A stretch of 38,828 bases of DNA, from the IMG/VR virus record IMGVR_UViG_3300000116_000061, positions 1-38,828 of that record; one strand, given 5' to 3'. Under the pieces are notes generated by a model, which was not told the origin of the DNA, did no database searches, and saw only the letters and a list, made by a program, of their open reading frames with translations. Below, piece by piece: positions 9,701 through 38,471 of this stretch; position 1 is the stretch's first letter, and each line of letters begins with the position of its first letter. The stretch comes from a virus. A program made the position numbers and the translations under genes.

Positions 9701-10296
9701 ATTCTGACGTAAGCGTTGTAAGCTTTTATCCAATCTTCTCTATTACTACCTCCAGCTGTTACGTTTCCGTCTTCATCAGCGTGGTGTCTGTAAGGTTGTT
9801 TGGGTATAAATATTTTTTGAGATCCACTTAAAAGATAACCAGACTTAATTTTTATTTGATTCTTACCAAATATACCGTCTGTGCCCAAGCCTAGCATGTT
9901 TGTGTTTTCAAAAGTTAACTCTGCCGCTTTTGGATCGTCAGAGTAATAGGTGTTCAAACCTTCTGATAAACCTTTTTCAACCTTATAACCTTTTGTGTTT
10001 GAAGCTAACTCGATAAAAGTCTCAAGAGTCATAATTTGAGGCCTAATATTGATTTCCTCTATATTTTCACCTCTGTATATAGTTTCATCTTCTGGTGAAT
10101 CCGAAGAAGTATCTTCCCCATCTGATCCCGTATTCATCGACGTGTCGTTGGGATCTACTGTCTCCACGTCGTTCTCGTTTCCCTCTAATTGCTTTAAAGG
10201 GCTTAATAGTTTTGCTTTTGGAAATTTTGCAAGAAAAGCTTGTTCCTTGTCTTCTGGAATGTTATAGACTTTATCGTCTACTGAATATCTAGGCAT
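763..10296 (-). CDS. giant multidomain internal virion protein (3177 aa)
   Basis: This is the largest gene in the window and probably encodes an ejected internal virion protein, like T7 gp16 but far longer. Visible parts in order: an N-terminal segment YSVDDKVYNIPED with LSPLK at 31-35; an acidic linker; a long coiled coil at about 420-600; hydrophobic, possibly membrane-active stretches at about 650-780; a zinc-protease-like HELLH at 1136-1140 with a candidate third ligand E1213 in VELLTLFGDAL; a segment around 1480 (SLDKSIGEG) resembling sigma-factor linkers; a HAD phosphatase-like domain with DFDET at 2212-2216, LTAR at 2292-2295 and VDD at 2348-2350; a region at about 2640-2960 resembling 'large polyvalent protein' LPD38; a charged coiled coil; and two Cys/His repeats at 3115-3138 and 3152-3176. 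The frame is uninterrupted. No lysozyme or transglycosylase motif was recognised. It follows the 522-aa and 279-aa genes, recalling T7 gp14-gp15-gp16. Confidence 0.85.
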   Translation of the reverse strand: MPRYSVDDKVYNIPEDKEQAFLAKFPKAKLLSPLKQLEGNENDVETVDPNDTSMNTGSDGEDTSSDSPEDETIYRGENIEEINIRPQIMTLETFIELASNTKGYKVEKGLSEGLNTYYSDDPKAAELTFENTNMLGLGTDGIFGKNQIKIKSGYLLSGSQKIFIPKQPYRHHADEDGNVTAGGSNREDWIKAYNAYVRMTELHFEGANSAPETAEERENLRKRNDEYTKDIALHNINFQLKNALEVAETDEEKQRLQDELLFNEQNPEEVKNNIDLEALREKDIYELNKQRLDDWNNTVGQELANQYRVEYNRENDPREGGENFEIERENYINQKLNEERAAQNPEETKVIKDYEKAIERLQTNSGFNMVQNLMQGKIGSTTQRGEQEFNNLDWIGDNKFDIFRNLPYKDVKALANGDLGESWQRNFLAQEKQKLFSKNIDELNQQSDQLELAVDDFEQDKKDYDDLVADYQERSTALSEEYGSIGSQLESVQKLLEGDVEALNDFQKRIDSQTDDYLKGELQKLYDSRFEEYNQRYNEYKELRESAQPYLERARQLENEYLDLESQRQQLEAEGGELDFMISKITNAEERLYAEFSYDESTKVINSGFKLDEDYYEWKNKRVTDNTGVFGSSRDFANTLVTGLIGGGLKFTAGTVLSATEWLGSKVEGIGVDAGFSTSENVYDKYDWINNKFNGLVAALTTFVPIADGTNLRKEGQFLGGYKHAMKTTANMLPFTIQIIVSARKGDVTKMGKLYSTLAKKGVDAKKLTALKGSETAWRLTIHDNVQEGKALGLDDEKAQQYGFYASVATSLSQLIMPDFKLVSGSSRVLSGLKSSFGTNLKAAVNRKAALNAVGQFWLNYTREYTEELTELTFQNINKHSLALGHGSIFGTLENHRDIAESVLLLNGTLQGTSTAMGSGDYQAFRNQLFDGFRQRGLDVVQDIENDMLQVAEKINIYSAAGNDSKVEYFTDLYNKMKKGRDFSLLINNAINLSPESVTDEQLDLVIQKQELLAKKKELDPAFAGMYDANIEALDVQINNSGVAQVTEKMFDRTTKNAKLMGEKMGIVVKVFGDKNTDPSAEIETYLSENTNLSKDKIKQAAREQGGAFTDNNGNEVFIVNKSKAMTSSGANVAAHELLHKFMAMTMAETTEDGFIITDQDGNPLLNKEAALAIQQGLGAEIMKLNPKRIADSTFSRRVEAYQSDPSSVQAVELLTLFGDALASGDIKYEENVFTKIGDFVRKATQKMGMPITFRTGKDVFNFLRDYNESIAKGEFTEAQKSMFRFGAELKGDISKLASDPRVKKEVLIENLLEQGISQYIVAPSERTKNTKVGNYLSSRDLNDLKDFDNFTQNPDGTPKYSTQEDFKMSEDYYNGYSSIVDSSALDGLIMAGMTEKGLRGAAMEDFVRKVKEEIGDRYLGKINKKTGERGRGFDIEATNASLFGWITGVAGGQGKSIIFRAKGDVMNQYKKDKGGDIVSLDKSIGEGATFGDMLVDEGNNMINTFEQQNLSHTEAREQAVIPGVFASAFGLNMEAISNAIAESNVTSTGLAYVDAKKAVSDVQKVKNKKGKLVVPTKSSDVVPTGPLFNIMEIVAAKFGVPASRVLANQTLNDKLRINAQNAIKENWKDLRDLALPEGETVSGQSTLVANTGLGVFYNKGERISMKQSGSAVGKEAQTKRTDITKEQFWAEFGINPDGSFMTGTKFDNNIRELIKQAAAITANQGVRMNDIKNGTAETAAVALFGDGRSSIAFSKDFRILPPEKQILFVSEIPQISAMLNPSIRNVSDWKQVRDVLVSVFEGSIPKSSLGGIAKDIVKLANYFKPVADSGLDQDGFDWSNYVANSFTSEADNITKLLGIEINGKKVKGSDLYDDIDLVAAARKVPSDIGKALLNTINPRTGIEYTLPEIARVMAILKPMYAGATQIGRQKFKVDDNGKLYEVTPDQLMKDGKPRTKFSDQRYQVFDSASDFMKWGVLQIPGMTQEIYDAANTKLIPQTSKYAVEKGDYDASLAEATEVREVINMALNVVGDNDISLAMFMISANSSMKAPIRRAANLKYIADKVKNMNPKQLGSLAEYEHMIPANYMAIKIIQEHKKGGIKNINEFYKDYTVAVIPKTMNDVLNAQGLQSLMNAGYQFGVDPSWFRYYNSLTIPFAELETIRDISTGELIGEPYTRIEIDKKIENAKKYTKARNNILASRDIKPNGASVFDFDETLIIDGDNFIIATDPATGKETKISSGDWPVKGPGLAERGFTFDFADFVNVRGGVEGPLLNKLRNRIAKYGPKNNFILTARPAESAAAIYEWLKTKGINIPFENITGLGNSTGKAKADWLVDKYSKGYNDIYFVDDAISNVKAVKEAFNSLDIKGSVVQAKINFSKDIDITFNRILENTKGVGAEKRFSRVEARRRGKNKGRFTFFVPPSAEDFAGLLRYFAGTGAQGDADIKFFEEALIKPFARADRAMSQQKQAIRDDYKALQKEFPSVKKILGKLTDGGKYTYDMAVRVYLFDKAGYDVPGLSNSARINMVNIVKQNQELRAYADALGKISRQEQGYLEPTENWDVENIAFDLQNATGRIGRKQFLAEFLENKDIIFSPDNLNKIEAIYGSNFRSALEDILYRMETGQNRRRGATKFENAWNNWINNSVGAIMFFNARSAVLQTLSTVNFVNFEDNNVFAAGRAFANQKQYWSDFSFLFNSDFLRNRRAGLATNVNEAELANAVAGATNKAKAALSYLLKIGFTPTQIADSFAIASGGATFYRNRVNTYLKQGMSQAEAESQAFLDFQEIAEETQQSARPDKISQQQASNLGRIILAFANTPMQYNRLIKKAAGDLINGRGDWRSNVSRIVYYGAVQNFIFAAMQNALFALAFDDDEELTEAQQAAKDRTEDTKHSRILNSMFDSLARGSGIYGAALATLKNAIIKYIEEDNKGWRADYAQVVIEALNVSPPLGSKARKLYSAGRTRKFSRDVMNEMSMLDYDNPGWQAVGNVVEATTNIPMARAIRKIDNLREAFNEDNTNMQRMMLFLGWSAWDLNVGTEVIKNEGKENEYVVTLDTKRMNQLKVEQELDAKKAKDRKEQAEKKKQEKKEQEVKENEQKVQENIEKQKKEGEDATCAAISSKGNRCKRKPVKDGFCTVHEKVEQNETGEKKQCTHIKPDGKRCKMKTNSKSGNCYYHD

Positions 10297-13220: not shown

Positions 13221-16200
13221 TTAAGCGTAGTTAGCAAAGTTAATTAATACAGCTACTGCCTCCGAAAAATTTAAAGAGTTATCTTGTGCTGTTAGATTTT
13301 GACTAGGTGGCGTAAACTTAATTGTTAACGTTAGCGTGTCGTCTGTATTTACGTCAGTAGTTATTGTTGCTGTAGTTGAAAAATCGTATATTCCTATATA
13401 GTAGTAGCCTGGCATACCATTATATACATTTATAAAATCGGTGCTAGAATAATCAAAATCACTATTCCAGCCATCTGGATTCAATAAAGCTACGGTGTAC
13501 AAGGTGTACTGATTGTTTGCCGGAGTTAAACCAAAATCGTAAGCTTCTACTAATCCTGCTGTATTGAGACCACCAGCGCCGCCAATTGAAAAAGAAACAC
13601 TTTCATATGCACCACCATCGCTAGTATATGCAAGCACCGAGCTTACATCTGTATCTCCAGCGTTAGGTGTTGTAACCGTAACTTCAGGTTTTTCATAATT
13701 TAATCCACCAACAACAGACAATAAACTACTATACCTAAGAGTTTCTTGACCTGATGTAGTTAAGTTTGCTGGATTTCCAGCTATAGCAAATTGCCAATAT
13801 TCGTTGTCGCTTTCGGCGTACTGATCTGAAGCAAATGTTAATGTTGCTATTACAGTCCCATCTGGACCATCCGCAAACGTAGCGTTGGTAATGTCGTCTT
13901 GCCCATAGCTAGAAAAAGACCAATTACTAGCCGCGACAAGTATATAACCTGGTAATGGAGAAAACACGATTTGATGACCGTTAGCTGTGCTTAAAGCGTT
14001 TCCTTCTACGTAACTAATAGGCAGCGAGCTTTGACTTATCCCAGTTAAGCTACTATAGCCACCATCAGTCCCCGCAGAAACAAAGTGAGTAAACATTTGT
14101 AATGTTTCACTATCGTCTACAAAGCTAGGCTCTTCAACCAAAGCCTCCATAGTAACGCTAGGAAAAACGTACTTGTCAAAAGGAGTTGAGCTGTTAGGTA
14201 TTGTGTTGCCCGAGGTTAAAAGATATGTGTAGGAGTATTTAACAACTACTATATCGCCATTATCGTTGTACGTATAAGTTTTAGTTTCAGTCCAGTCATT
14301 ACTGTCGTCAAAACTAGTGGTTGGATCAAACGAGGTTGTAGATGGAATAACATATCCATCGAAAGCCGTAAATGTTATAGAAAATACACTTGCAGCAGAA
14401 CCATTATCAGTATAAGTTCCAACAAGTTCTGTTTCCAACAAAGAGCCTGACAAACCTTCTTGGTACAATGTGTAGTCATCAGTAAATATACTGTAAGAAT
14501 AGTTGTTGTTAGGAAGAGTTACGTCTACGTCAACTTGATGATCTAAACATACGTTCTCAACACCGTTGGCAAAGAAAATGTCTCCAGCCACAAAAGTTAA
14601 ATCTCCACTAGCAGTACCTGTTAGATTAAATGATATTTGAGCAGATCCATTTGAGTACACTAAGTCTCCAGCCTCCCAATTATCGCTATAACTAGCAATC
14701 CAACTAGGTAAACTGTCAGCAAAATCAAAATCGTCCACATCTATTTCATAGCATGAATCTGGGGTCCATGTTATAGTTAATTGGCCGTTTAGCGTATTTA
14801 AGTTTGTTCCTTCTACAATAGTTGCTGAAGATCCAGTAACAGTGTATCCTGTGCCAGTTATTTGATTAACGTCTATTGCTATAGTATAAGTTCCAGCTGC
14901 AACACCTTCTATGCCTTGAGCTCTACCTAGACCTTGCACGGAAAACTCTTGAGTATCTAAGTTTGCTGCCGCGTAGTCGCTATTGTCAAAAACTAAGCTA
15001 TCACCGTGAATGTAGTTAAACCACTTACCTTCTTTTTCTTTAAACTCTAAAACTTTACCTGTCTGCTTGTTTGTTGTTATAGAATCTAAATACCAGCCTC
15101 TTCTAGCTGTATTATTATAGTACTCTTGATAACCCGGACTTAAAAGGTCATGCGTTGAGTCATCGTCTAACTCTAGTATTCTAGCTTGAGTTCCTTCATA
15201 GTTTACAGCCATAAAGCTTTTTACACTACTAGGCATTTCGTTTACTACAGGAGTAATACTAGAATAAAACTGCACGCCGTAAAAGTTATTTACAGTTGCC
15301 GACTCAGTATGCTCGTATGTCTCCCCTTTTTTAAACGTGTAGTAAGTATTGTTTAAAGAAACTCCAGACTCTAGATAATAAGACTTAAAGCTGGACCAAC
15401 CTTTAATAGACTCGTTATACGAAATAGTTTTAGCTCTAGCTGTAGGTTGAGTGGCGGAGGTGTAGTCGTAGTATATTGTTAAATCATACTCACCTTTGTC
15501 TCTATTGTAAGCGCCTACGCAAGCCTCTGCCGTTTTTAAAGTATCTCCAAAATAATCGCCCATACCAGCTAGCGCAATGTTTGTTAAGCCATCTTTTGAC
15601 AATCTAATAACAGCACCTCTAGCTTTGTCTACAAAATAAGATCTATATTCTTCGGTAACAAAAGATTCAGGATTTTTTCCTATACCATATTCTCCTTGAT
15701 AAGGTACAGTTTGACCAAGAACATTTTTAGTAGATGTAACCTGATTTGCGCCTGAAGCCGTAAACAAAGCGTCTTTGTTAGCTAGCACTTTAACTACCTT
15801 GTCTTCGCAGCAAACAGTTATATCAGTGTCTCTAGAGTTCATTTTTTGTATAGAACCAAACTGAGGGTTTAGGTCTTTTGTTATACCTTCAGCCGTAATA
15901 AACTGGTTTAAGTTATTTACGCCGTTTTTAGAGTTGTATATACCAGAAAATATTAATCCATTTTTTCTTTGTTGTTCTTTATAGTTTTCTGAAGTAGTTG
16001 AAACTTTAACGCCATTATCGATAGTTGTAGCATTAAAATCATCTCTAATTCTATTAGATTCAACACCTTGATGAAAGCTAAAGCAATTAAAGAATGGTAG
16101 GTATATACTGTTGTTATGTACCGTGTCTGATTTTAAATATATCGTGTTTGTTGCTCCACCTATACCATACTGAGCATACCCTACAGGAGGAGCTAAATTA

Positions 16201-19200
16201 GCAACTACTTTACTACCGTCTTTTTTTACTATGTGAACGCTTCCAGGCTTAGCAAGAGTATTTGCTGCTGGCGCAGGCGCACCGTGTAAAGCTGGAAACG
16301 TTATATCTGTATCTAAAACTACTTTAGTTAATCCTCCAGCTACTCTAGGTCCTTCGATAGACTGTATGGCTACACTAAGAAGATTATAGCCTGGGGAAGA
16401 CATTCCCGCAGGAACACTACCACCATCTAACTCGCCATTGTAAAAGTCGGGTATTATAGCTGAGCTTGGAATACTCTTATAATATATGTACACCCTGTCT
16501 CCAACAGTTGCCCAGTTGTTTACATTATCGTAAGTTAGCTTAATAGGATATGTTCTTGGTATTTCGTAAAATACATCTATATCAATTTTTGGATCTGGCT
16601 TAACCTCAAACACGGCTGAAGCTGGAGACGCTATACCTGGATTTAACCAATTATACCATTCTTCATCTCCAGTGTTAATACCCACAGCCCCAGTAAGAGT
16701 AGCTGAGTTTTTTACTTTAACAAAGAACTTTCCATCTTGATCTACTGAAGGATCAAAACCAGGCGCAGCATCATCTCCGTCAAAAAGCTCTTTTGGAGTT
16801 TCGTTAGATATTTCTATTATTTTAAACTCAACGTTAGCAGAAGCTGGGGTTGGTGAAGAAAACCTATGCGCCATTTTAGGTATTAAATAATCTCCTTCTG
16901 AAACTTTATTTCTATCTGACGAATTAAATATCAACCAGCACTCTGTTGTTTTGTTGTCTTCAGTTGGGTTAGAGGAAAAAGCTCTATATAAAGATATATT
17001 GTAGTATTCGTTAGAGTTTTCTTTAACAAAAAACTTAAAGTACTCTGCCCAAGGCGGAGGTGGATTATTTAAAAATACTGATATTAAACGAGGATCATAA
17101 TCGCTGTAAGGCGTTTGAATAGATGAGTTTTCACCTATCAACACAGAAGACTCTCTACCAAACTTATCTTTATACACAACGCCTAAAGTATATGTTCTTC
17201 CACTCTTTATAGAAAGAGCGCCTCTAGAGTTCACTGAATTAATACTTTCAGTAGATCTATTTCTAACAGAAGCCACTCCTTTACCGCCGTTCCAATTTAT
17301 AAATGATAAATCTATATTGCTTCCAGTAGAGTCTACTAAGTCGTAGCCTTGAGTGTAGTTTCCGTATATAAGTCTACTAGCTGAGATCTCTTGAGCTTTA
17401 GCTTTTCTTGGAACGTTATCAAAAGGTCTTAATATTTGATTTGAGGGTATAACGCTTCCGTATGTAGAACCAACAACTTCCAACACACCTTTGTCCCGAC
17501 AGCTTGAGCCCAAAGGTCCATCTTCAACCCAAGGATATACAGTGGTTCCTCCTTCTATAGCTTGTCTTTTATCTTTTCTCTTTATAGTCTTAAGAAGATA
17601 TATGTTTGTATTTCCATCTTCTCTGTATAATACGTCTACTTCTTCAACTTCTTTTGGTATATCAAAAGGAATAAATCGATGTAGCACTATTTTCCTAACA
17701 TCGTTAACCATTGACGTGTTGAACGCTTCTTTAGCGGAAAAAGAGTACAATCCTTTAGGTATGAAAGCTACGTTAGTAAATGGTGATATGGCAGAAACCT
17801 CGTTATCGCTATACCTCCATCTAGTAGCAAATCTAACAAACTTTTCTTCAAATAAAGGCTCTACTTTTTCAATTAAAGAAGCTTCCCAAGATATAGCGCC
17901 TACATCAACAGCTTCTATATAAGCGGCGTTAGCAGATTCAAATTCAGCTGTAAAAGTCCCAGCTGCATAATTATAACTTACTATCTTTAGCGTAACTTCA
18001 AAGCCACCATTGTCACTAACGTTGTACGACTGTAGTAATATTTTGTCTCCATCACCCCAACCTCTATTATCATTAGGAGCTGCTAAATCTTTTAAAGGCT
18101 TTATAAGATTTCCTTCTTGATTTTCAATTATTGTCAAACCACCAGTAATAGGGTCTCCAGCGGAAAAACTAGATAGATCAATAGCTTGTATACCAACCCT
18201 GCTAGTATCTCCAATTTTTAAAGTGTTGTGAAGATCCATGTCTGGAGCTTGAAGAGGAGATCTTTTTATTACCGTAACATCTTCTAAATTCATTTTTGAT
18301 CTCTGATATTCCTGAAGATGGTCTTGATATAAAAACTCCGTTGTCTTATATAGACTGTTGTTTGTTCCTATTCTACTTCTTTCTATGTTTATTTTTTTAG
18401 GTTCTGATCTACCGTCAGTAAAATAAATCAAGCCGTCAAAAACGTTAACAGCTGTAATTTTGTTTGTTCTAGGTATATACGTAGACGGCGTATAGCTGGT
18501 TACAGTTCCGCTAGAATCTAAATATGTTTCATCTAATAAATTTACAGCAACATTGTTGTCGGGGCTTTCGTCAAACGCTGTAACAAAGTTTAATAACCTT
18601 TCTTCTTTTTCAAAAAATAAAATATTATCGTTATCTGTGTTAGAGACTTCTTTGTCTAGTACTATTTTTATGTATGGACTTACGTCATCATAAACTGGTG
18701 TAAAGCTTTTAAGTACTACTTTTCCTTCTTCGGCCCATAAGTTTGTTCCGTTAGAATTAAGAAGTTTTGCAGTCATGCCTACTTCAAGACCGTTTAAGTA
18801 ATTCCAATAAGCTGATTGATATAATCTTATCTCAGTAACACCAGCGCTAGCCGTTTGAGCTCCTGCGCTAGTGATATTTGCTTTAGCATTTATTTGACCA
18901 CCGTTAAATAAGCCCCACTGTCTTTTTGAAGCGTATACATCTACGAATATATAATCTAAACGTTGAGTTTTATCGTTATACTCAAATATAACATCTGTTT
19001 TTATTCCTGATAAGTGAGTTCCTGAGCCATCTATATCATTTGTTGTTTTGTAGCTCAACGCACTACCGGTAAAACAATATACATTACCAGTTCTTTCATC
19101 ACTAACGCTAGCAACAACTTCAGCTGCAGAACTAAAGCTTGTAGTGTACGGTCCAGATGTAGTACTTCCAAACCCTATCGGCAGGCCGTCCCTGTCAAAA

Positions 19201-19412
19201 GCTTGTTGTTCACCGTCATAAAAAGGTTCTCTAAATTGAATTAAGTTTAAAGATTTATTACCTATAATGTTTTCAACAGAGCCTATATTAGATCCTTCAG
19301 AAGTTGTTACCTCTATGTTTAAAGCGTCTCTATATTCTCCATTAGGTATTAACCTTTCATCAAGGTCTTTATTCATTTTACCTTGCATGAAGTTTCTCTT
19401 CAACTCCGCCAT
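13221..19412 (-). CDS. large tail 'stabilization' / tubular tail protein (2063 aa)
   Basis: The N-terminus (KRNFMQGKMNKDLDERLIPN and GEYRDALNI, about residues 5-33) is the conserved opening of the crAss-like 'stabilization' protein and of related podoviral tubular tail proteins, which build the tail tube below the connector. Most of the protein (to about residue 1490) is beta-rich, as in T7 gp12-like tail proteins. The C-terminal third is an extension of Ser/Thr/Asp-rich modules. Similar units centred near residues 1546, 1679 and 1812 each hold an I-T/V-F-(about 4)-GY-x-I-like core and a Trp or Asp-rich loop, and look like repeated beta-sandwich domains suited to surface binding. The protein is longer than I would expect for the family. 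It lies between the connector genes and the internal proteins. Start at 19412 retains the conserved N-terminus. Confidence 0.8.
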   Translation of the reverse strand: MAELKRNFMQGKMNKDLDERLIPNGEYRDALNIEVTTSEGSNIGSVENIIGNKSLNLIQFREPFYDGEQQAFDRDGLPIGFGSTTSGPYTTSFSSAAEVVASVSDERTGNVYCFTGSALSYKTTNDIDGSGTHLSGIKTDVIFEYNDKTQRLDYIFVDVYASKRQWGLFNGGQINAKANITSAGAQTASAGVTEIRLYQSAYWNYLNGLEVGMTAKLLNSNGTNLWAEEGKVVLKSFTPVYDDVSPYIKIVLDKEVSNTDNDNILFFEKEERLLNFVTAFDESPDNNVAVNLLDETYLDSSGTVTSYTPSTYIPRTNKITAVNVFDGLIYFTDGRSEPKKINIERSRIGTNNSLYKTTEFLYQDHLQEYQRSKMNLEDVTVIKRSPLQAPDMDLHNTLKIGDTSRVGIQAIDLSSFSAGDPITGGLTIIENQEGNLIKPLKDLAAPNDNRGWGDGDKILLQSYNVSDNGGFEVTLKIVSYNYAAGTFTAEFESANAAYIEAVDVGAISWEASLIEKVEPLFEEKFVRFATRWRYSDNEVSAISPFTNVAFIPKGLYSFSAKEAFNTSMVNDVRKIVLHRFIPFDIPKEVEEVDVLYREDGNTNIYLLKTIKRKDKRQAIEGGTTVYPWVEDGPLGSSCRDKGVLEVVGSTYGSVIPSNQILRPFDNVPRKAKAQEISASRLIYGNYTQGYDLVDSTGSNIDLSFINWNGGKGVASVRNRSTESINSVNSRGALSIKSGRTYTLGVVYKDKFGRESSVLIGENSSIQTPYSDYDPRLISVFLNNPPPPWAEYFKFFVKENSNEYYNISLYRAFSSNPTEDNKTTECWLIFNSSDRNKVSEGDYLIPKMAHRFSSPTPASANVEFKIIEISNETPKELFDGDDAAPGFDPSVDQDGKFFVKVKNSATLTGAVGINTGDEEWYNWLNPGIASPASAVFEVKPDPKIDIDVFYEIPRTYPIKLTYDNVNNWATVGDRVYIYYKSIPSSAIIPDFYNGELDGGSVPAGMSSPGYNLLSVAIQSIEGPRVAGGLTKVVLDTDITFPALHGAPAPAANTLAKPGSVHIVKKDGSKVVANLAPPVGYAQYGIGGATNTIYLKSDTVHNNSIYLPFFNCFSFHQGVESNRIRDDFNATTIDNGVKVSTTSENYKEQQRKNGLIFSGIYNSKNGVNNLNQFITAEGITKDLNPQFGSIQKMNSRDTDITVCCEDKVVKVLANKDALFTASGANQVTSTKNVLGQTVPYQGEYGIGKNPESFVTEEYRSYFVDKARGAVIRLSKDGLTNIALAGMGDYFGDTLKTAEACVGAYNRDKGEYDLTIYYDYTSATQPTARAKTISYNESIKGWSSFKSYYLESGVSLNNTYYTFKKGETYEHTESATVNNFYGVQFYSSITPVVNEMPSSVKSFMAVNYEGTQARILELDDDSTHDLLSPGYQEYYNNTARRGWYLDSITTNKQTGKVLEFKEKEGKWFNYIHGDSLVFDNSDYAAANLDTQEFSVQGLGRAQGIEGVAAGTYTIAIDVNQITGTGYTVTGSSATIVEGTNLNTLNGQLTITWTPDSCYEIDVDDFDFADSLPSWIASYSDNWEAGDLVYSNGSAQISFNLTGTASGDLTFVAGDIFFANGVENVCLDHQVDVDVTLPNNNYSYSIFTDDYTLYQEGLSGSLLETELVGTYTDNGSAASVFSITFTAFDGYVIPSTTSFDPTTSFDDSNDWTETKTYTYNDNGDIVVVKYSYTYLLTSGNTIPNSSTPFDKYVFPSVTMEALVEEPSFVDDSETLQMFTHFVSAGTDGGYSSLTGISQSSLPISYVEGNALSTANGHQIVFSPLPGYILVAASNWSFSSYGQDDITNATFADGPDGTVIATLTFASDQYAESDNEYWQFAIAGNPANLTTSGQETLRYSSLLSVVGGLNYEKPEVTVTTPNAGDTDVSSVLAYTSDGGAYESVSFSIGGAGGLNTAGLVEAYDFGLTPANNQYTLYTVALLNPDGWNSDFDYSSTDFINVYNGMPGYYYIGIYDFSTTATITTDVNTDDTLTLTIKFTPPSQNLTAQDNSLNFSEAVAVLINFANYA

Positions 19413-25049: not shown

Positions 25050-27473
25050 TTATCTTGGATCAAACTTATTCAATCGCATACCTCCGCCTAACACGTCATT
25101 TCCAGACGACTCAAATTTTTGCGGGCCCTTGCCTTTTTCTTTTTGATCCATTAAAGCGCTCTTCTGCGAGGCTTGCATTTTTGTTCTTTCGTCTTTTCTG
25201 TCTTCTCTAGTAACCTCAGCTTCCTTGCTAGCTCTAGCTTCAACATCTTTTAGCTGCATGTTTAATTCAAACTCATACTTCATAAGATCTTTCTTAACTA
25301 GAGCTTCTTGTTCTAGCTCTTGCATTTTCAACTGAGACTTAGCTTGCTCTAGCTGGGTGTTCATCTGAACCATAGCTTGCTGTTTTTGTATTTCAGCTTG
25401 AGCCACAGCTTGTTGAGATTGAGCGTTAGCTTGGGCTTGAGCTTGTATGTTTTGCTGCTGTATTTCTTGATCTCTTTCTGCTTTTTGCTTTCTTCTAATT
25501 TTAAGAAGTTGATTAGCTAGCTTTAAATTTCTTATGTCTCTAAGATCGATAGCGTCTTCTAGGTCTATTAGCTTCTGGCCTAAAGCTACTTGTATGTTAT
25601 TTTCTAACATTTGTTTTTCCTCGTCGTCAGGCATTAGCTCTAAGAATATGCCAAAGTCGTATAAGTGTAAGTTTGACATTTCTTCAAGTGTAGCTACATT
25701 ATGCGCTCCTATAGCCTGTATGAAGGCGTCTTTTGTTGGAGAATACTCTATAACATCAGATATTCTAAGTGATAAAGCTTCCGCTACTTGCGCTGTTAAG
25801 AATAAGCCAGACTGTAGTATATGTCTAGTTGCTACGTTTGAGTTTGCCGCAGCTAGCTTTTGAACACCAACCAAAGCGTTTTTATCAGGAGTACTACCGT
25901 CTCTAGCTTCATTAAGACCAGTTACATCTCGCATCATCTGCAGGTAATAGTTGTAATTACCTATTAACGCTTGCATTTTGTTGCCACCACCACCAGACTG
26001 TATTTCTCTAATAGGCACAGCCCCGGGGTTACCCTCACCTAAAGCGTTCATTGATCTACCAATAACAGAACCTGTTTGGAAGAACATATTTAAAGCTTCT
26101 TGAGGATTGTAGTTTGTGCCGTTACCTAAGTCTATTTCAGCTAAACCATCCGCGTCAAGATAAACGCCATCTGGAACCATTTTAGACATTACTTGTTGTA
26201 GCTTTAAGTGTGTAAGCTGTATCATATCAGCAAAACCTGTTATTCTACTAACAATAGATTCTGTTCTACCGTTGTACATTCTAGGAGCTACTATAGCATA
26301 GTTCATTTTAACTTTAGTGAAGTCACTTTTTGGTCTAACCATGTTTTTAGCCATCTCCCACTTCAATATAATATCTGTACCTAGTATTATAGCGCCGTCG
26401 TAAACACACTCTATAGACCTAGACACTCTTTTAAAGTTTCCTTGCTTGTCTTTAGGTGGATTAAAGTCGTCGCTTTTCGGTATAGCTCTTTCGCCGCCAG
26501 TACCTGTTTCTTTTACTTTGTAAACATCGTTCATATACGTCTTGTAGTTAAAATACAAAACTTGAACTTTATTGTTGTCTGTTTTATTTGAGTTTCTAAC
26601 TCTTTGATAGCCGTACCTAGATCTATTATTTGGCTTATTAGCTATTTCTTCTAGCTCAGCTTGACTTAAGTTAGGGAACTGCTTAGCTAATTCATTTATA
26701 GGTATTGTTTTAACTTCGCCTACGTAATATATATCATCGAAGTAAGGCGAATCAGTGTACGACCAAACCATGTTAGCCGGGTCGACATAATCAACGGTAA
26801 TTCCTTCTGAAGTATTAAACCCTGTTTTAACAGCTCCAATACCTAGAACAGTAAGATCGTAGTAAAATCTTTTAGATATTAAATCGTAGTCATTGCCCTT
26901 CATCAGTACGGCTATAGCTTGTTCTTCAGCTATTTCAACCTCCTGCTTGTAAGTAAGCTGCATGTGAAGCATTAGCTCTTCCTCTGTTTGAGGCAGCGTG
27001 TCTGGTTCGTTTTCTGTTATATCTACTTTAAATGTATCTCTAACTTTTTCAGCAAAGTCTTTAGTTCGCATGTCGTCTAATATAGACTGCATGTACGAAG
27101 TTCTTTTATCTACGCCGTATGGATCTTGAGAGTAAGCTTTTATATCGTAAGATCTATCAGCCATACCGTTAACAACTATATCTACAAATTTAGGTATAAT
27201 AGGCACCGGCTTCCAGTCTAAGTTTAAGTAGCTTAAGTCACCGTTTATGGACAACTCATCTTTGTATTTTTGTATTGATTGTTCGCCTCTAGCATACAGC
27301 CTCAGTTTGTGAAATCTTTCTTTGTTTTCTATATATCTATTGTTAGTGTAGTTTTCATTAAACCACTCTTGCTCTATAGCTTTAGCTACTTTTAAACCAT
27401 ACTCGCTTGACATTTTTTCTATGTCACTAACAACCTGTGAAGGAAAATAACTTTTTACAACTGACTCAGCCAT
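25050..27473 (-). CDS. portal protein (807 aa)
   Basis: The gene follows the large terminase by 2 nt and precedes the scaffold, the normal portal position. The protein is helical and beta-mixed and has the size seen in podoviral and crAss-like portals. An N-terminal part holds WFNENYTNNRYIENKERFHK (about 37-56). A middle part has repeated aromatic-rich strands and the conserved-looking DGVYLDADGLAEIDLG. The C-terminus (about 670-780) is a long Gln/Ala/Lys-rich coiled coil with many QQ and AQ steps, followed by a Gly-rich end, plausible for a portal barrel. It forms the DNA entry vertex and motor docking site. The call rests on context and remembered similarity to marine phage portals. Confidence 0.8.
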   Translation of the reverse strand: MAESVVKSYFPSQVVSDIEKMSSEYGLKVAKAIEQEWFNENYTNNRYIENKERFHKLRLYARGEQSIQKYKDELSINGDLSYLNLDWKPVPIIPKFVDIVVNGMADRSYDIKAYSQDPYGVDKRTSYMQSILDDMRTKDFAEKVRDTFKVDITENEPDTLPQTEEELMLHMQLTYKQEVEIAEEQAIAVLMKGNDYDLISKRFYYDLTVLGIGAVKTGFNTSEGITVDYVDPANMVWSYTDSPYFDDIYYVGEVKTIPINELAKQFPNLSQAELEEIANKPNNRSRYGYQRVRNSNKTDNNKVQVLYFNYKTYMNDVYKVKETGTGGERAIPKSDDFNPPKDKQGNFKRVSRSIECVYDGAIILGTDIILKWEMAKNMVRPKSDFTKVKMNYAIVAPRMYNGRTESIVSRITGFADMIQLTHLKLQQVMSKMVPDGVYLDADGLAEIDLGNGTNYNPQEALNMFFQTGSVIGRSMNALGEGNPGAVPIREIQSGGGGNKMQALIGNYNYYLQMMRDVTGLNEARDGSTPDKNALVGVQKLAAANSNVATRHILQSGLFLTAQVAEALSLRISDVIEYSPTKDAFIQAIGAHNVATLEEMSNLHLYDFGIFLELMPDDEEKQMLENNIQVALGQKLIDLEDAIDLRDIRNLKLANQLLKIRRKQKAERDQEIQQQNIQAQAQANAQSQQAVAQAEIQKQQAMVQMNTQLEQAKSQLKMQELEQEALVKKDLMKYEFELNMQLKDVEARASKEAEVTREDRKDERTKMQASQKSALMDQKEKGKGPQKFESSGNDVLGGGMRLNKFDPR

Positions 27474-27475
27474 AC

Positions 27476-29689
27476 TTATTTTTTAATTAATATTGATGAT
27501 AAACCATCGTTCTTATATCGAGCAATATTTAAGCTCACTTTATTAGTATTACTTGATTTAGGATAGTATAAATGTCTGTTGCAAGCCATAATGGCCAACC
27601 CTGAGCTTATAGCGGCGTCAAACTTAGTTCTTTTGTTGATGTCAAACTTAGCCCAATCATTAAGGGTTTCGTTAAAGTATACGTTACCGTAGTTGCCATC
27701 TCCCTTGTGACCAACGTGATCGTTTATGTACATCTCGATAGCGGCGGCGTGAGACTGCTTTATGTCTTCACTAGAGTTTGGTATACCTCCAACTTCTTTC
27801 TCAGCAACAGACAGTTTATTCCAAACTTTATCTGGTCTATTCATAGAGTATCCCCTGTATCCTCTTCTCTTTAAGTAATATAAAAGTCTAGGCTTATTGT
27901 TTTCAGCGAGCAACGGCATACCGTAAAATACTAAAGCCATTAATACGTCTTCAAAGAATATCTCGGCTGTAGGTGGTCTTGAAACGTACTCTAAGAAAAA
28001 AGTGTTTGCAGGAGCATCTTCCATTGAAAACTTAGTTAAGCCATGCAAAGCCCCGTTAGAACCTCTTCCATCTACTGTTCCACTAATGTCATAGCTATCA
28101 CAACCAAACGCACCCACGTGCTCGTTTCCTGGCAATTTAATACCTTGTTTTATTATCTGTCTGTTTTGTAAACCTATACTAGGAACCCAGCTAACTTTAA
28201 ATCTACCGCTTGGGTCTGGTATAAAAACAACCTTAGTGTCTTTTATTCCGTTTTGCCATTGAAAGTTTCCTGTAGTAACAGCGTTAGAGTTTCTTATCCC
28301 TTCGTTGTAATCTATCTGCTCGTATATCTTAACTAGATTAAACAAACTATTTTTCGTTTCATCTCTAAACGCGTGCTCCGTGGTTCTAGGAAACTGACGG
28401 TAAAATTCGTTTAAACCATCTTGATCGCCTTTTAACCCTTCTACTTCATTGTCCCAGTATTCTATTATACCTATATCTATTAGTTCACCGTCGGGTCCAC
28501 GAGTCTCTCCTCTTGGAGTGTTAAACACAGGTCGTCCATACTCATCAATAAAACCTTCATAGTTCCATTCCATTGGGATAAACAGAGAATATAAACCAGA
28601 GCGTGTTTGTCCATTCGCGTTTCTTTTAGTGACATCACTGTCGTTATATAATTTTTTAAAGTTGTCACCACCTTTGTCTAAAGCGTTTGACGTTGATCCC
28701 ATCATACACTTGCCAACTATTCTAGAACCTAACCTAAGGCATGTTTTAGTTACTCGCCAGTTGTTGAGTATGTTGTCAGGCCTTTCCCACTTACCACTTT
28801 CATCGTGAACTAGTAGGCTAAGTTTTTCACCATCATAACTGTTGTCACCTGTATTTTTCCAATCAATTGTAGTGTCTAGACCTTGTATGTCTTCTAGCTT
28901 TTCTTTTGACGTAATTTTTTTACGAGTAAATTTACTTGCAGGAACACGATAAGCAAGCTCACTTTTAGGCCTGTCCATACCATCTTGTATTGGCTTGAAA
29001 AAGAAAGGATAGTTAATAGATATTGGTACAACCTTGTCGGTAAACATTTTTTTAGCATCTGCACCAGACTTAGATAGTATGCCGTATCTACTGTCGCTAG
29101 ATATTGTTGCTTGGTTAACAGTTTCAGCGCTACTCATAAATGAAAAACCAGAACGTCTGTTTTTAAGGTAACACATGCCGTAGCATCTAACATCTGCTTT
29201 ACAAGCTTCCCAGAATATAAAGAACAATCTATTCGCTTCACGAAAGTCTGGAGCACCAACGTCTATTTTGCTCCATTGAAGATACATATAATGGCTGCCA
29301 GGCAAATACGTGGCAACACCACCATTGTTAAACCAAAACCCTTCATCTCTGCGCTTGAACTCCTCGTCTATGTAGTCGTACCATTGTTCTTTTTGCTCCT
29401 CAGGATATTCTCTCCAGTCAAATATGCTTTTTATTTTATTTAGTATAGAAGGTTTTTCAAGCTGCTTCCACCTATTAAGCTCGTTGCTATACACATCTTT
29501 TGGAGCTGGAGGCAGGGCAATTTTTAAACCTTGTATATCGTATATTTCACCGATTTGACCTGTCTTAGATATAACAACAACGTCATGCTCTTTACTATAG
29601 CCGTAGCTCCACTTTTTAGACTTATTAAGTCTTTTGATAGTGTTGCTTCTTATTGGCTTTATTATCTTATATAAACTCTGCTCGTACAT
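27476..29689 (-). CDS. terL: terminase large subunit
   Basis: The packaging motor ATPase and nuclease, 737 aa. Visible motifs: NRRSGFS at 178-184 in the Walker A position, LLVHDE at 292-297 as Walker B with D296 and catalytic E297, and GSTS at 331-334 as the coupling motif. The nuclease part starts near GAFGCDSYD (526-534) with D531 as the first metal ligand; later acidic residues, including the D of KFDAAISSG, complete it. The Walker A lacks the usual Gly-Lys-Ser/Thr, which is odd, although R-R-x-G-x-S variants occur in large terminases. The start overlaps the small terminase stop as TAATG. Confidence 0.93.
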   Translation of the reverse strand: MYEQSLYKIIKPIRSNTIKRLNKSKKWSYGYSKEHDVVVISKTGQIGEIYDIQGLKIALPPAPKDVYSNELNRWKQLEKPSILNKIKSIFDWREYPEEQKEQWYDYIDEEFKRRDEGFWFNNGGVATYLPGSHYMYLQWSKIDVGAPDFREANRLFFIFWEACKADVRCYGMCYLKNRRSGFSFMSSAETVNQATISSDSRYGILSKSGADAKKMFTDKVVPISINYPFFFKPIQDGMDRPKSELAYRVPASKFTRKKITSKEKLEDIQGLDTTIDWKNTGDNSYDGEKLSLLVHDESGKWERPDNILNNWRVTKTCLRLGSRIVGKCMMGSTSNALDKGGDNFKKLYNDSDVTKRNANGQTRSGLYSLFIPMEWNYEGFIDEYGRPVFNTPRGETRGPDGELIDIGIIEYWDNEVEGLKGDQDGLNEFYRQFPRTTEHAFRDETKNSLFNLVKIYEQIDYNEGIRNSNAVTTGNFQWQNGIKDTKVVFIPDPSGRFKVSWVPSIGLQNRQIIKQGIKLPGNEHVGAFGCDSYDISGTVDGRGSNGALHGLTKFSMEDAPANTFFLEYVSRPPTAEIFFEDVLMALVFYGMPLLAENNKPRLLYYLKRRGYRGYSMNRPDKVWNKLSVAEKEVGGIPNSSEDIKQSHAAAIEMYINDHVGHKGDGNYGNVYFNETLNDWAKFDINKRTKFDAAISSGLAIMACNRHLYYPKSSNTNKVSLNIARYKNDGLSSILIKK

Positions 29690-29964
29690 TATTTAGATCT
29701 ACCTTCAGCAAAACCTTTAAAAACTCTTTCTTTTTTCTCTTCTACAACCTTGCCATCAAGCAAAGCCTGTTCTTCCTGTATACGGTTAAGTATCTCGAAC
29801 GCGTCAAATATAGCCAACTTTTTTGTAGCCGCGGCGTTCTTAAGTCTATCAGCGGTAATATCATCACCACTATCAACAATGGCTTCTTTAGCTACTTTAA
29901 TAAGCTCTTCAACAGCCCTATGCCCAGCTTGGATTATACTCTTCTTCGTCTCCTTGATATTCAT
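29689..29964 (-). CDS. probable terminase small subunit (91 aa)
   Basis: A short helical protein immediately upstream of terL, with a TAATG overlap. It has the segment ADRLKNAAATKKLAIFDAFE (about 38-57) followed by ILNRIQEEQALLDGK and a basic tail ending FAEGRSK. I recall this block as a conserved gene in front of marine phage terL. Size, position and the Arg/Lys-rich tail fit a small DNA-recognition terminase subunit, but no helix-turn-helix is obvious. Its start lies inside the end of the 194-aa gene (47-nt overlap), and no later Met exists. Confidence 0.6.
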   Translation of the reverse strand: MNIKETKKSIIQAGHRAVEELIKVAKEAIVDSGDDITADRLKNAAATKKLAIFDAFEILNRIQEEQALLDGKVVEEKKERVFKGFAEGRSK

Positions 29965-30502
29965 ATTTAATTGTAATAAAATTAGACATTACTCTGTATA
30001 GCCTTTTTCCCTCTATAATAAACTCATATTCAGAGCTAGGTCTAAAGCCTACTAAGTCTCCCACGTCTACAGTGCCGTCGGAATACTTAACTACACCCAT
30101 TAACGGTTTTTCTTTTTCTACAGCAAAATCTTTATTGTCTTTTATAGGCTGAATAAAACAATACCCTTTGGGAGCTTTCCACTTTTCTTGTGACTTAAAT
30201 AAAAATATCTGATCTTGGTAGACTATATACATGTCTTCGTGAAAATAGTTCTTACTATTTCTTTCGTTGCCGTACTGATCCTCCCACCTTCTAAAGACGT
30301 TGTGGTGTAGCACTACAATATCACCAGGATTTATCCCCATGTTATTGTTAATGATTGGGCAGCTTATAACCTCAGCTTCTCTGTTAACAAATTGATGATT
30401 AAAGTTTTCAGAGTTTACAATTAACTCTTTATCACCTACAGACTTTGTGTTGTTGTATCTAGACCCTAACGGCCTTACAACAAAACCGTAAACGCTTTTC
30501 AT
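29918..30502 (-). CDS. tandem GroES-like beta-barrel protein (194 aa)
   Basis: Two segments each follow the GroES pattern: a first strand, a loop, a strand with GDxV, then a xxV..xxI end. Segment 1 (about 3-102) has YGFVVRPLG, a longer loop around 17-40, REAEVISCP, NPGDIVVLHH (58-67) and YIVYQDQIFLF (92-102). Segment 2 (about 113-181) has YCFIQPIK, GVVKYSDG, VGDLVGFRP (147-155) and LYRVMSNFITIKY (168-180). Segment 2 seems to lack a mobile loop. The C-terminus (GDEEEYNPSWA) is acidic. The start shares TAATG with the 73-aa gene. It may be a co-chaperonin working with the GroEL of this phage, or a structural barrel unrelated to chaperonins. Fold call moderate, function open. Confidence 0.55.
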   Translation of the reverse strand: MKSVYGFVVRPLGSRYNNTKSVGDKELIVNSENFNHQFVNREAEVISCPIINNNMGINPGDIVVLHHNVFRRWEDQYGNERNSKNYFHEDMYIVYQDQIFLFKSQEKWKAPKGYCFIQPIKDNKDFAVEKEKPLMGVVKYSDGTVDVGDLVGFRPSSEYEFIIEGKRLYRVMSNFITIKYEYQGDEEEYNPSWA

Positions 30503-33692: not shown

Positions 33693-34451
33693 TTAATATT
33701 TTTTAGATTTACAACCTCTTTTAGTTAAAGCGGAATCTCCACCTTTCTTTTTTCTACCTCTAATGTTAGATCCTTGTTTTGCTACTATTGCCTCTGCGGC
33801 TGCAGCGCCTTTTAAGTCTTTACCTTCTTTAGTGCCCACGGCAACAGAAGCGCTAGTTCGTTTTTTCTTGCTTAAGCCAAGTTTTCCGTATCTTGTAGAT
33901 TCTTTTTTAACATTGCCTTGCTTGTCGTATTTTACTTTAACAGTTTTTTTACTTTTTCCTTTACCAGCAGACATTTTAACTTTTTTAACGTCCTTAACTC
34001 TAGAGCCCGGAGCGCTCGGGTCGGCAACCAATCCGTCTTTTGCTTTTTTACCCTTGACTTTAACTTTAACGTTAGTTTTTCTTACTTTTAAGTTGCCGTC
34101 ATTGTCTGAAGTTAAATTATCGTCAGACTTTCTTTTCTTAACATTAGCTGCGGCTTGAGACTCAACGTCAGTGACTTTCATTTTAGGATCTACACCCATG
34201 TTTTGCACATTCTTCTGCTGAGCGTCAATAGACATATCTCTTTCTGTCTTAGTTTCTGGGCGAGCTGTTGTTTTTCTAATATCGTCGTAGTAGTCACCTA
34301 TATATTCTTTACTTCTAGTGTCTTCCGTAAACTTTGCTTTTTTCTTTACAGGAGACGCCTCTATTTTTGCTTTTAAATGCTCAGGTAGTCTATGCTGCTT
34401 ACCAACTAACTTTTTCATTAGTGGACTTTTAGGTCTCATTTTAAATGCCAT
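33693..34451 (-). CDS. histone-like, lysine-rich protein (252 aa)
   Basis: A very basic, low-complexity protein: long runs alternate Lys with Val, Ser, Gly and Ala, especially in the second half. The N-terminus reads MAFKMRPKSPLMKK, and a second motif, ASPVKKK, lies at 32-38. KQHRLPEHLKAKI (18-30) may be a short helix. There is no known fold. Composition resembles histone H1 tails or nucleoid-condensing proteins, so it may pack DNA in the capsid or enter the host with it. It is 2 nt from the 103-aa gene, which shares motif and N-terminal style. Role inferred. Confidence 0.5.
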   Translation of the reverse strand: MAFKMRPKSPLMKKLVGKQHRLPEHLKAKIEASPVKKKAKFTEDTRSKEYIGDYYDDIRKTTARPETKTERDMSIDAQQKNVQNMGVDPKMKVTDVESQAAANVKKRKSDDNLTSDNDGNLKVRKTNVKVKVKGKKAKDGLVADPSAPGSRVKDVKKVKMSAGKGKSKKTVKVKYDKQGNVKKESTRYGKLGLSKKKRTSASVAVGTKEGKDLKGAAAAEAIVAKQGSNIRGRKKKGGDSALTKRGCKSKKY

Positions 34452-34455
34452 AGTT

Positions 34456-34800
34456 TTATTTTTCTGCTTTTTTAGCGACCTTTTCCCAAGGAAAGTTCAT
34501 ACTTCCTTCTTCTGACCACTTGCCGTTATACTTTATTTTACCATCTTTTCTAGGATACGTGACTCCCTTATACCTAACGTAATCATCACCGTAAGAAAGT
34601 TGACCGTTAGCCATATCTTCAGCGTGTTTACCTTCATGTTTAATTACACGTTTTTCTAAACTACTACCTTTTGGAACTGATTTATCCACGTAAATACTAC
34701 CGTCCATATTGGCTTCGCCTAAAACTCCTTTAGCTAAAGTCTTTCTTAGTATTGGACCTTTAAATCCTCTTTTTTCGTTACCTAATTTAAAGTTTGCCAT
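34456..34800 (-). CDS. small HExxH protein, possible metallopeptidase (114 aa)
   Basis: KHEGKHAEDM (about 54-63) contains HExxH, the zinc-binding motif of metallopeptidases. It is followed by a conserved-looking YGDDYVRYKGVTYPRKDGK block (about 69-87) and GKWSEEGSMNFPWEK (about 92-106). I recall the same block in small proteins of marine phages. The N-terminus (MANFKLGNEKRG) resembles those of its two neighbours. It might act as a head or scaffold maturation protease, but a short chain with only one motif could also be structural. No clear third ligand was found. It shares TAATG with the gene upstream. Confidence 0.55.
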   Translation of the reverse strand: MANFKLGNEKRGFKGPILRKTLAKGVLGEANMDGSIYVDKSVPKGSSLEKRVIKHEGKHAEDMANGQLSYGDDYVRYKGVTYPRKDGKIKYNGKWSEEGSMNFPWEKVAKKAEK

Positions 34801-36655: not shown

Positions 36656-36913
36656 TTAATCTACTAATACAATATCACTTGATTTAATAACAAAATAAAG
36701 TTTGTCATTAAACTCTATTCCGTGCCCAGCTCTTTTGTCATAGTACACCGTGTCACCATCTACAATACCCTCTACTAAATTACCTGTTGATACAACTAAA
36801 CCTTTTAAATATCTAGTGTCTTCAGCAAGCTCTTCAGTTAATATAAGACCACCTACTTTCTTTTCAGTGTTCTTTATTTTATCTACTACTACGTAATTAT
36901 TTATTGCTTTCAT
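36656..36913 (-). CDS. groES: co-chaperonin GroES (10 kDa chaperonin)
   Basis: The 85-aa protein forms the lid of the GroEL folding chamber. NNYVVVDKI (5-13) is the first strand, and KKVGGLILTEE (18-28) is the mobile loop with hydrophobic L23-I24-L25, equivalent to the IVL that grips GroEL apical domains. Then come GLVVSTG, DGDTVYYDKRAGHGIEFN and the closing VIKSSDIVLVD. It is shorter than E. coli GroES (97 aa), mostly by a shortened mid-section including the roof loop. Its start lies within the last 17 nt of groEL, so translation is probably coupled. In bacteria groES usually comes before groEL, whereas here it comes after. Close in kind to cellular GroES, unlike T4 gp31. Confidence 0.9.
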   Translation of the reverse strand: MKAINNYVVVDKIKNTEKKVGGLILTEELAEDTRYLKGLVVSTGNLVEGIVDGDTVYYDKRAGHGIEFNDKLYFVIKSSDIVLVD

Positions 36914-38471
36914 AATCTTCTTGTCTAGCGTTTGAAATTACACAATCTGCAGATACTATAGTGTTTACTACACTCACCGCGTTTTTCAGCGCCGATTTTG
37001 TAACCAAAACCGGATCTATTATTCCTGATTTAACCATATCAACTTCTTCACCGGTAACAACATCAACGCCACGCCCGTACTTAGATGGGTAGCCTAACAT
37101 TTCAAAACCAGCGTTCTGCATTATAGTTATAAATGGAGCTTTAATAGCATCGAGAAGGATGCGTTCACCCTCGTTAGAGGGTTCGATTTTTTGAAAAGCG
37201 TTAAGGAGGGCAATACCACCTCCAGGTACTATGCCTTCTTTCAAAGCTGCTTTTGTCGCGTAGATCGCGTCTTCAACCCTATCCTTCTTTTCTTTGAGCT
37301 CGACTTTAGAATCAGCGCCGACTTTAATAACGCCAACCGAACCTGATAGCATAGACAATCTTTGTTCCAGCTTCTTTTTAAAAAAACCATTCTTTTCATC
37401 AGCTATTAGTTTGTTTACTTGATCTATTCTTTCTTCTAGTTCTTCAACGTCTGTGTCTATAGTCAGTACAGTAGTTTTGTCGTCTGTAGCTGAGTATTCA
37501 GCTTCTCCAAGCATTTCTACGGTCATAGAGTCTAGATCGTCCCCTAACTCTTCGTTTAGTACAGTAGCACCAGTAAGTATAGCTAGATCTTCGCAAGTAT
37601 CTTTTTTAGTAGGACCAAAGCCTGGTAAGTCGATAATATTAACTTTAATATTGCCTTTTACCTTGTTCATCAAAAGCGCAGACTTTACTTGCTGTGACAC
37701 GGGCGCTACTATAAGTAAAGATCTGTTTTGCTTTATAACATACTCTAATATGCTTTGTATTTTACGTACGTTAGGTATCTCAGACATGCATATTAATACT
37801 AGAGGATTATCTAGCTCTGCTTTTTGTTTGTCTGTGTTTGTTACGAAATGAGGTGATGTTAACCCACAGTCTATTTGTACGCCGTCAGTTACATCTACGT
37901 AAGTTTCTTCTGTCTCAGACTCTTCCATAATAACAACGCCGTCTTTACCTACTTCATTGTAAGCCTGTGCTATTATAGCTCCAAGCTGAGAATCGTTGTT
38001 ACAAGATATTGAAGCAACGCTTTCTAGCGTTCCATCAGTAACTTCTATCTTTATAGAATCTAAATAGTCGTTTATCTTGACTAATCCAGACTCTATACCA
38101 TTCCTTACTTCTCTTGCTGTTGCACTATCTTTAGAACTGTTGATAGTGTTTAGTAGTGATTCAGCCAGTACTGTAGCGGTGGTTGTTCCATCACCTGCTT
38201 CTCTAACTGTGTTCTTAGCAGCTTCTTTTATAAGTGTTGCTCCTAAGTTTTCTACCGGATCATATAAGACTACGCTTTCTGCAACGGTTACACCGTCTTT
38301 TGTGATCACCGGTATGCCGCGCGCATCTTCATATATTACGCATCGGCCGGATGCTCCAAGAGTTGACTTTACTGCTTTAGCTAGTTTTTCAACACCAGCA
38401 CCAATTTTAGATTTAGCGTCCTGACCAAAGTTTAGTTCTTTGATCAGGAGACTAGGATTGTTGTACTCCAT
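36897..38471 (-). CDS. groEL: chaperonin GroEL (60 kDa chaperonin)
   Basis: Full-length 524-aa group I chaperonin. Equatorial motifs: TLGASG at 37-42, ITKDG at 56-60 (D59 matches E. coli D52), GDGTTTAT at 93-100 (D94 matches D87), RVEDA at 398-402 (D401 matches catalytic D398) and VPGGG at 415-419. The apical segment includes GLTSPHFV (203-210) and LPGFGPTK (282-289). Differences from E. coli: TLGPKG has become TLGASG in the nucleotide loop, Y203 has become His at 208, and L234 reads Gln at 239, both apical client/GroES sites. The GGM-repeat C-terminal tail is absent. ATPase residues are kept, so it should be active. It is followed directly by groES. It may fold the large phage proteins. Confidence 0.95.
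   Translation of the reverse strand: MEYNNPSLLIKELNFGQDAKSKIGAGVEKLAKAVKSTLGASGRCVIYEDARGIPVITKDGVTVAESVVLYDPVENLGATLIKEAAKNTVREAGDGTTTATVLAESLLNTINSSKDSATAREVRNGIESGLVKINDYLDSIKIEVTDGTLESVASISCNNDSQLGAIIAQAYNEVGKDGVVIMEESETEETYVDVTDGVQIDCGLTSPHFVTNTDKQKAELDNPLVLICMSEIPNVRKIQSILEYVIKQNRSLLIVAPVSQQVKSALLMNKVKGNIKVNIIDLPGFGPTKKDTCEDLAILTGATVLNEELGDDLDSMTVEMLGEAEYSATDDKTTVLTIDTDVEELEERIDQVNKLIADEKNGFFKKKLEQRLSMLSGSVGVIKVGADSKVELKEKKDRVEDAIYATKAALKEGIVPGGGIALLNAFQKIEPSNEGERILLDAIKAPFITIMQNAGFEMLGYPSKYGRGVDVVTGEEVDMVKSGIIDPVLVTKSALKNAVSVVNTIVSADCVISNARQEDYESNK

Follow-up and report, generated by a model that had tools for sequence, protein, structure and literature searches.

A tandem GroES gene beside the large terminase points to a three-part chaperonin system in a group of marine Bacteroidetes phages

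The phage genome fragment examined here carries its own copies of both halves of a group I chaperonin, and the question raised by this locus is whether these genes form a folding machine tailored to the phage, and of which parts such a machine would consist. The window, meaning the whole stretch of DNA that was analysed, is IMG/VR virus record IMGVR_UViG_3300000116_000061 (38,828 bases, positions 1 to 38,828). The reading preferred here, with a probability of about two in three, is that the phage encodes a self-contained chaperonin of three parts, namely a divergent GroEL, a single-domain GroES lacking the roof and a tandem GroES, in which the two GroES proteins would form a mixed lid over a possibly single-ringed GroEL and the whole would be used for virion proteins. 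The groEL and groES genes lie as follows:

36897-38471, minus strand: groEL, a divergent group I chaperonin of 524 aa (PF00118, 178.9 bits; phrog_5725, 449 bits), with the catalytic residues kept and apical and inter-ring residues replaced
36656-36913, minus strand: groES, a single-domain co-chaperonin of 85 aa that has GGLIL as its mobile-loop motif and no roof hairpin (PF00166, 49.3 bits)
36897-36913, minus strand: the overlap of 17 nt that couples groEL and groES (from the ORF coordinates)

Both genes are intact, with groEL first and overlapping by 17 nt, as the original prediction stated and as the ORFs, Pfam, PHROGs and NCBIfam all confirm. The groEL product matches the Cpn60/GroEL domain family (Cpn60_TCP1, cut-off 34.3 bits) over its full length and exceeds the threshold of NF000592 (466 bits, cut-off 397), and the groES ORF is above the threshold for the Cpn10 domain (21.1 bits) and retains the mobile-loop tripeptide, which reads LI(M/L/I) in most relatives. 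Both proteins are nonetheless divergent members of their families, as neither attains the strict NCBIfam equivalog cut-offs (456.8 bits for GroEL against the 582.1 of TIGR02348). The small GroES has no roof beta-hairpin, owing to a nine-residue gap relative to E. coli GroES that is found in all 12 aligned phage sequences; this hairpin is not required of phage co-chaperonins. The order of the two genes, described beforehand as the reverse of that in bacteria, is indeed so, with groEL preceding groES in 113 of 113 phage loci and groES preceding groEL in all 73 bacterial loci in which both were found. The phage genes overlap by 14, 17 or 1 nt, mostly 14 or 17, in 102 of these 113 loci. There are at least 593 relatives of this GroEL in IMG/VR. 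In one of the contigs (G003, the record of L118; 10076-11419) the GroEL match falls in two stretches inside a single open frame of 494 aa, with about 80 profile positions absent, perhaps because part of the apical domain has been deleted.

A second co-chaperonin gene, designated tES, is situated beside the large terminase gene and thus outside the region of 36656-38471 to which the original prediction was confined. It lies 6 kb from groEL and in a different module, and the two are on opposite strands in the Flavobacterium phage elemo. The features of tES and its surroundings are:

29918-30502, minus strand: tES, a tandem (two-domain) GroES of 194 aa directly upstream of the large terminase gene (phrog_13932, E 2.1e-15; AF2 and Foldseek, Cpn20; found in 107 of 107 loci)
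30191-30502, minus strand: N-terminal GroES domain of tES, about residues 1-104 (canonical GroES profile on the elemo homologue; hhalign to the small GroES, P 0.001)
30377-30469, minus strand: mobile loop of the N-terminal domain, residues 12-42, with LIV here and LIL in most relatives (aliphatic triplet in 211 of 223)
29963-30184, minus strand: C-terminal GroES domain of tES, about residues 107-180 (Pfam Cpn10 and phrog_3188 on the phi38:1 homologue)
30098-30145, minus strand: short loop of the C-terminal domain, residues 120-135, without the GroEL-binding motif (16 residues in 215 of 223; triplet in 1 of 223)
27476-29689, minus strand: large terminase (phrog_6681, 568 bits)
25050-27473, minus strand: portal protein (phrog_6547, 507 bits)

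Whilst a normal GroES is about 95 residues long, the 194-aa tES protein matches over its full length a PHROG annotated as co-chaperonin GroES. An AF2 model of the window protein, built with 72 homologues (pLDDT 77, pTM 0.71), was searched with Foldseek against all PDB chains, and the best matches, again over the full length, were 7ekq_R (E 8.5e-5) and 7ekq_Q (E 4e-3), which are tandem chains of 194 and 205 residues named Cpn20 co-chaperonin subunit and Chaperonin 23. These are followed by some 30 GroES and Cpn10 chains and by gp31, and the TM-scores are moderate (0.5). A separate AF2 model of the elemo homologue, which is 34% identical, placed 7ekq_R at the top once more (E 3.2e-4). Each half of tES is also tied to GroES independently, since the canonical GroES profile phrog_3188 matches residues 108-194 of the phi38:1 homologue (E 7.5e-7), a half that is above the Pfam Cpn10 cut-off as well, and in the elemo homologue matches residues 14-64 (E 3e-4). 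The window protein itself has no Pfam Cpn10 match, a direct comparison of its N-terminal and C-terminal halves detected no similarity, and the tES profile found neither Cpn20 nor GroES by sequence in the PDB, so that the assignment is founded on the fold and on these intermediate sequences. With two models that agree on Cpn20 and with profiles that reach both halves through relatives, it is highly likely that tES is folded as two GroES domains placed head to tail. PHROGs and some database records already label the gene as GroES or cpn10, and no annotation or paper was found that states it to be a tandem.

The two domains differ in their mobile loops. That of the N-terminal domain spans 31 residues between the first strands and carries LIL, LIV or LII, much as the small GroES carries LIL, LIM or LII, and in the elemo model it is the sole segment of three or more residues with a pLDDT below 50, which is as expected of a GroES mobile loop. 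In the C-terminal domain this motif has almost disappeared, and an intact loop is therefore present in one domain rather than in both. There is, in addition, an insertion in the N-terminal domain that is absent from normal GroES, in which an invariant HHN and a nearly invariant FRR/FR (residues 66-72) are kept in nearly all tES relatives; a role as a co-chaperonin does not account for it. A longer protein in BFVD (A0A516L046, 304 aa) also matches the tES model well (E 1e-9, TMq 0.68), and its further 100 residues possibly represent a third domain or a fusion.

The large terminase of the window is closest to that of a circular podovirus genome of 60.8 kb from Manatee Spring (64% identical), followed by those of the Flavobacterium elemo phages (45%), with Cellulophaga, Tenacibaculum and Maribacter phages next. 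The portal and the order of genes in the capsid module are common to the window, elemo, phi38:1, Calle and Panino. This suggests that the window is probably about two thirds of a genome of roughly 60 kb and that the host is probably a bacterium of the Bacteroidota. The structural module has two very large ORFs at its end, of 3177 aa (763-10296) and 2063 aa (13221-19412), the relatives of which are annotated as structural. Two smaller ORFs were also noted: one of 114 aa (34456-34800) has an HEGKH (HExxH) motif and may be a small zinc metallopeptidase, and another, encoding a protein of 252 aa (33693-34451), is 28% Lys+Arg and has no PHROG match. An apparent SPLxK motif in neighbouring ORFs was rejected because its frequency is near chance.

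The three chaperonin genes occur together throughout these phages. All 107 related loci that span groEL and the terminase gene have both groES and tES, with tES just before the terminase, from which it is mostly separated by a gap of 200-230 nt or which it overlaps by 4 nt. These loci were collected for their resemblance to this phage or its relatives, and the counts describe this group. Taken from the other side, GroEL is present in 20 of 24 large contigs with tES, the four others being fragments of 36-42 kb, and in each of the 13 large tES contigs searched with the Cpn10 family a small GroES was matched, in one case slightly below the cut-off. The tES profile, which did find the four positive phage genomes, found nothing in phi14:2, cr111_1, immuto or DAC16, and in a sample of 395 Bacteroidota genomes, a set with no cellular positive control, gave two weak and broken partial matches and otherwise none. 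With Panino tES as the query, no relatives were found in IMG/VR.

Some GroES-like proteins were seen in more distant phages. Three genes upstream of the terminase, crAss phage cr111_1 encodes a single-domain GroES-like protein of 136 aa (L335, 5807-6217), and phi14:2 has a GroES-fold protein of 129 aa in BFVD (S0A2F3), so that a co-chaperonin near the terminase may predate this phage group. Another gene of cr111_1, of 182 aa and two places ahead of the terminase, was considered as a tES and rejected. In Bacteroides phage DAC16 (MT074137.1, 67022-67129; L330) a weak second Cpn10 match lies inside a frame of 218 aa, besides the GroES that adjoins GroEL.

The residues of GroEL were compared in an alignment of 84 members of the clade to which the window protein belongs, 78 bacterial GroELs and a hand-entered E. 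coli reference, the numbering of which is used here. One of the changes lies in the equatorial nucleotide loop:

38346-38363, minus strand: TLGASG in place of TLGPKG (84 of 84 in the clade; also in Panino and phi38:1)

The residues singled out in the original prediction were read correctly, and they are traits of the lineage rather than noise, because they are fixed across the clade. Thus the ATPase and nucleotide residues D87, T89-T91 and D398 are identical in 84 of 84 members, P33A and K34S are equally universal, apical Tyr203 and Leu234 are His and Gln in the window (H or N at 203, and Q at 234, in all 84), and the GGM tail, present in 72 of the 78 bacterial proteins, is found in none of the clade. 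Beyond these residues, Y199L and L259K alter the same apical binding surface. In the window this surface carries Y199L, Y203H, L234Q, L259K, V263L and V264M, with L237 and F204 alone retained, and the changes are fixed or nearly so in the clade: Y199, Y203 and L259 are replaced, and V264M is fixed, in all 84. With polar residues at 203, 234 and 259, ordinary hydrophobic clients and the host GroES should be bound less strongly, and this suggests that the phage GroEL has a dedicated client range.

The contacts between rings are altered too. Position 434 is deleted in all 84 members and positions 463 and 464 in 83 of them, K105, A109 and R452 are lost from most, and E461 is kept in 41 of the 84. 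R452, E461, S463 and V464, which are among the positions that join the two rings, are altered in the single-ring mutant SR1. Since the canonical inter-ring contacts are deleted or unconserved, the phage GroEL may work as a single ring, for which the chances appear to be about even from these residues.

From the genes, the folds (by profile and by prediction), the co-occurrence, the synteny and the residue changes described above, a mechanism is proposed, of which the stoichiometry, the ring number and the substrate are the inferred parts. The tandem and single GroES would assemble with each other into a common lid on the phage GroEL, acting as a single ring, and the capped chaperonin would enclose virion proteins, for instance the capsid, the portal or the very large structural proteins. 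The role of tES as a co-chaperonin of the phage GroEL is probable, with the distance of 6 kb between genes in different modules, the moderate TM-scores, the lack of a Pfam Cpn10 match in the window protein, the absence of similarity between its halves and the HHN-FR insertion counting against it. By arithmetic on the sequences, three tES and one GroES would give seven beta-barrels with four intact mobile loops, and four is also the minimum number, out of seven, of functional GroES subunits reported to be needed for binding to GroEL (PMC4242682); this 3:1 lid is the favoured one, but can be put forward only tentatively. The most likely use is as an aid to the folding or assembly of the capsid, the portal or the structural proteins of 2,000-3,000 residues, as tES lies in the packaging module and the annotation of phi38:1 does not count it as a structural protein. 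The original idea of a chaperonin adapted to phage substrates or to its own GroES holds in part: the binding-surface changes, fixed in 84 of 84, are what would be expected of a GroEL adapted to the phage's co-chaperonins and substrates, but the account was incomplete in that there are three components and not two, and tES, the most unusual of them, was not included.

It is also conceivable, if unlikely, that the two co-chaperonins are alternative lids for two sets of substrates, with homo-heptamers of the small GroES serving early or general folding and homo-oligomers of tES, with six or eight barrels and on the phage or the host GroEL, serving late capsid proteins in the manner of T4 gp31. 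The location of tES and groES in different gene modules would agree with this, as would the findings that concatemers of six to eight GroES domains function with GroEL and that in E. coli the Cpn20 of Plasmodium can by itself take the place of GroES (both reviewed in PMC5780408). A tES homo-oligomer, however, would have only three or four intact loops, which is at or below the reported minimum (PMC4242682).

A slightly less likely alternative is that tES, though of GroES fold, has been taken over for packaging or for the assembly of the virion, for instance as a partner of the terminase or portal or as a scaffold, and no longer caps GroEL, leaving the small GroES as the only lid. Its place directly upstream of the terminase gene, at the short spacing given above, the loss of one of its two mobile loops and the invariant HHN-FR insertion are all compatible with such a recruitment. 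Nevertheless, the N-terminal domain keeps a loop of the GroEL-binding type with a motif matching that of the small GroES, tES is absent from the proteins annotated as structural in phi38:1, and it is always accompanied by GroEL on contigs of sufficient length. A co-chaperonin within the three-part system is therefore preferred.

As to the origin of the phage GroEL, the best 80 cellular matches among 84,980 GTDB species representatives are 38-43% identical and scattered over phyla, and in the tree the clade of the window protein consists of phages alone (99 SH-aLRT) and is placed among further, long-branched phage GroELs. Close to it, and separate from the cellular sequences, are the GroELs of crAss phages and the remaining ones of these Bacteroidetes phages; as several of the branches are very long, the detailed relationships among the phage lineages are uncertain. 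It is very improbable that the genes are an ordinary phage copy of a groESL operon taken up recently from a host, or that the contig joins host groEL to phage genes, for although certain phage GroELs do cluster with those of their bacterial hosts and host contamination probably accounts for some of the phage records in the search, none of those 80 best matches exceeds 43% identity, the clade holds phages only, groEL precedes groES in every phage locus, and the recurrence of the same arrangement in 107 related loci from many contigs excludes a chimera. Of the two refuting conditions named in the original prediction, a position inside one host genus with near-identical sequence and a chimeric contig, neither holds.

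Carriage of GroEL and GroES by this phage group is already known; what is new here is the tandem co-chaperonin and the three-part system. Among 78 related environmental genomes of marine Bacteroidetes phages, 36 were reported to contain GroEL (Nishimura, 2017; PMC5332604), and mass spectrometry has detected the GroEL of phi38:1 in the course of infection (PMC13288928). The terminase, the portal and the order of the genes place the window with Cellulophaga phi38:1 (Callevirus), Flavobacterium elemo and Maribacter Panino, i.e. with the "group 2" of Nishimura. GroEL and the small GroES are carried by elemo, the Manatee Spring genome, Panino and phi38:1, and are annotated in related Flavobacterium, Cellulophaga and Maribacter phages; phi38:1, elemo and Panino have all three genes, like the window. 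Their GroELs are, however, only 37-39% identical to that of the window, and in phi38:1, unlike the window, groES is upstream of groEL with one ORF between them.

Phage-encoded lids are also known from T4 gp31 and other phage co-chaperonins. T4 gp31 lacks the roof hairpin, like the small GroES here, but works with the host GroEL, whereas the present phage has a GroEL of its own and two kinds of co-chaperonin; gp31 also ranks well below Cpn20 in the tES fold search. The chaperonins of Pseudomonas phage EL (gp146) and AR9 are phage-encoded GroEL-like proteins that probably lack stable double rings, as proposed here. That of phage EL is about 28% identical over 79% of the window GroEL and has no known GroES partner (PMC7185714), whereas the window GroEL has two candidate partners.

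The closest parallel to tES is with the plastid proteins of the Cpn20 type (Cpn20, Cpn21, CrCPN23 and the apicoplast PfCpn20), which likewise have two GroES domains head to tail in about 190-200 aa and occur alongside a single-domain Cpn10. In chloroplasts, Cpn10 and Cpn20 join in mixed rings with a total of seven GroES domains (PMC5780408), and in the literature searched tandem GroES proteins appeared in plastid contexts only. Unlike plastid Cpn20, tES has lost the second mobile loop and is encoded by a phage, beside the terminase. The identity in the fold alignment is about 15% and no relationship was found at the sequence level, so that the two fusions are probably independent and tES is likened to Cpn20 in its architecture and not classed with it by descent. 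The fullest version of the comparison, that this virus lineage independently evolved a plastid-style lid of three tandem and one single GroES, with exactly four loops, over a single-ring GroEL with a polar surface for virion proteins, is rather unlikely. Tandem co-chaperonins have been described as specific to chloroplasts, with an apicoplast relative, and the puzzle they pose is an even number of GroES domains set against a chaperonin of seven-fold symmetry. If tandems arose a second time, apparently without relation to the first, in marine phages that are abundant, where one loop has been lost and a single GroES is always present, this offers a natural experiment on this puzzle. The system is small enough, at three genes, to be rebuilt in vitro, and it illustrates the extent to which viruses can fit a folding machine to the proteins that they make.
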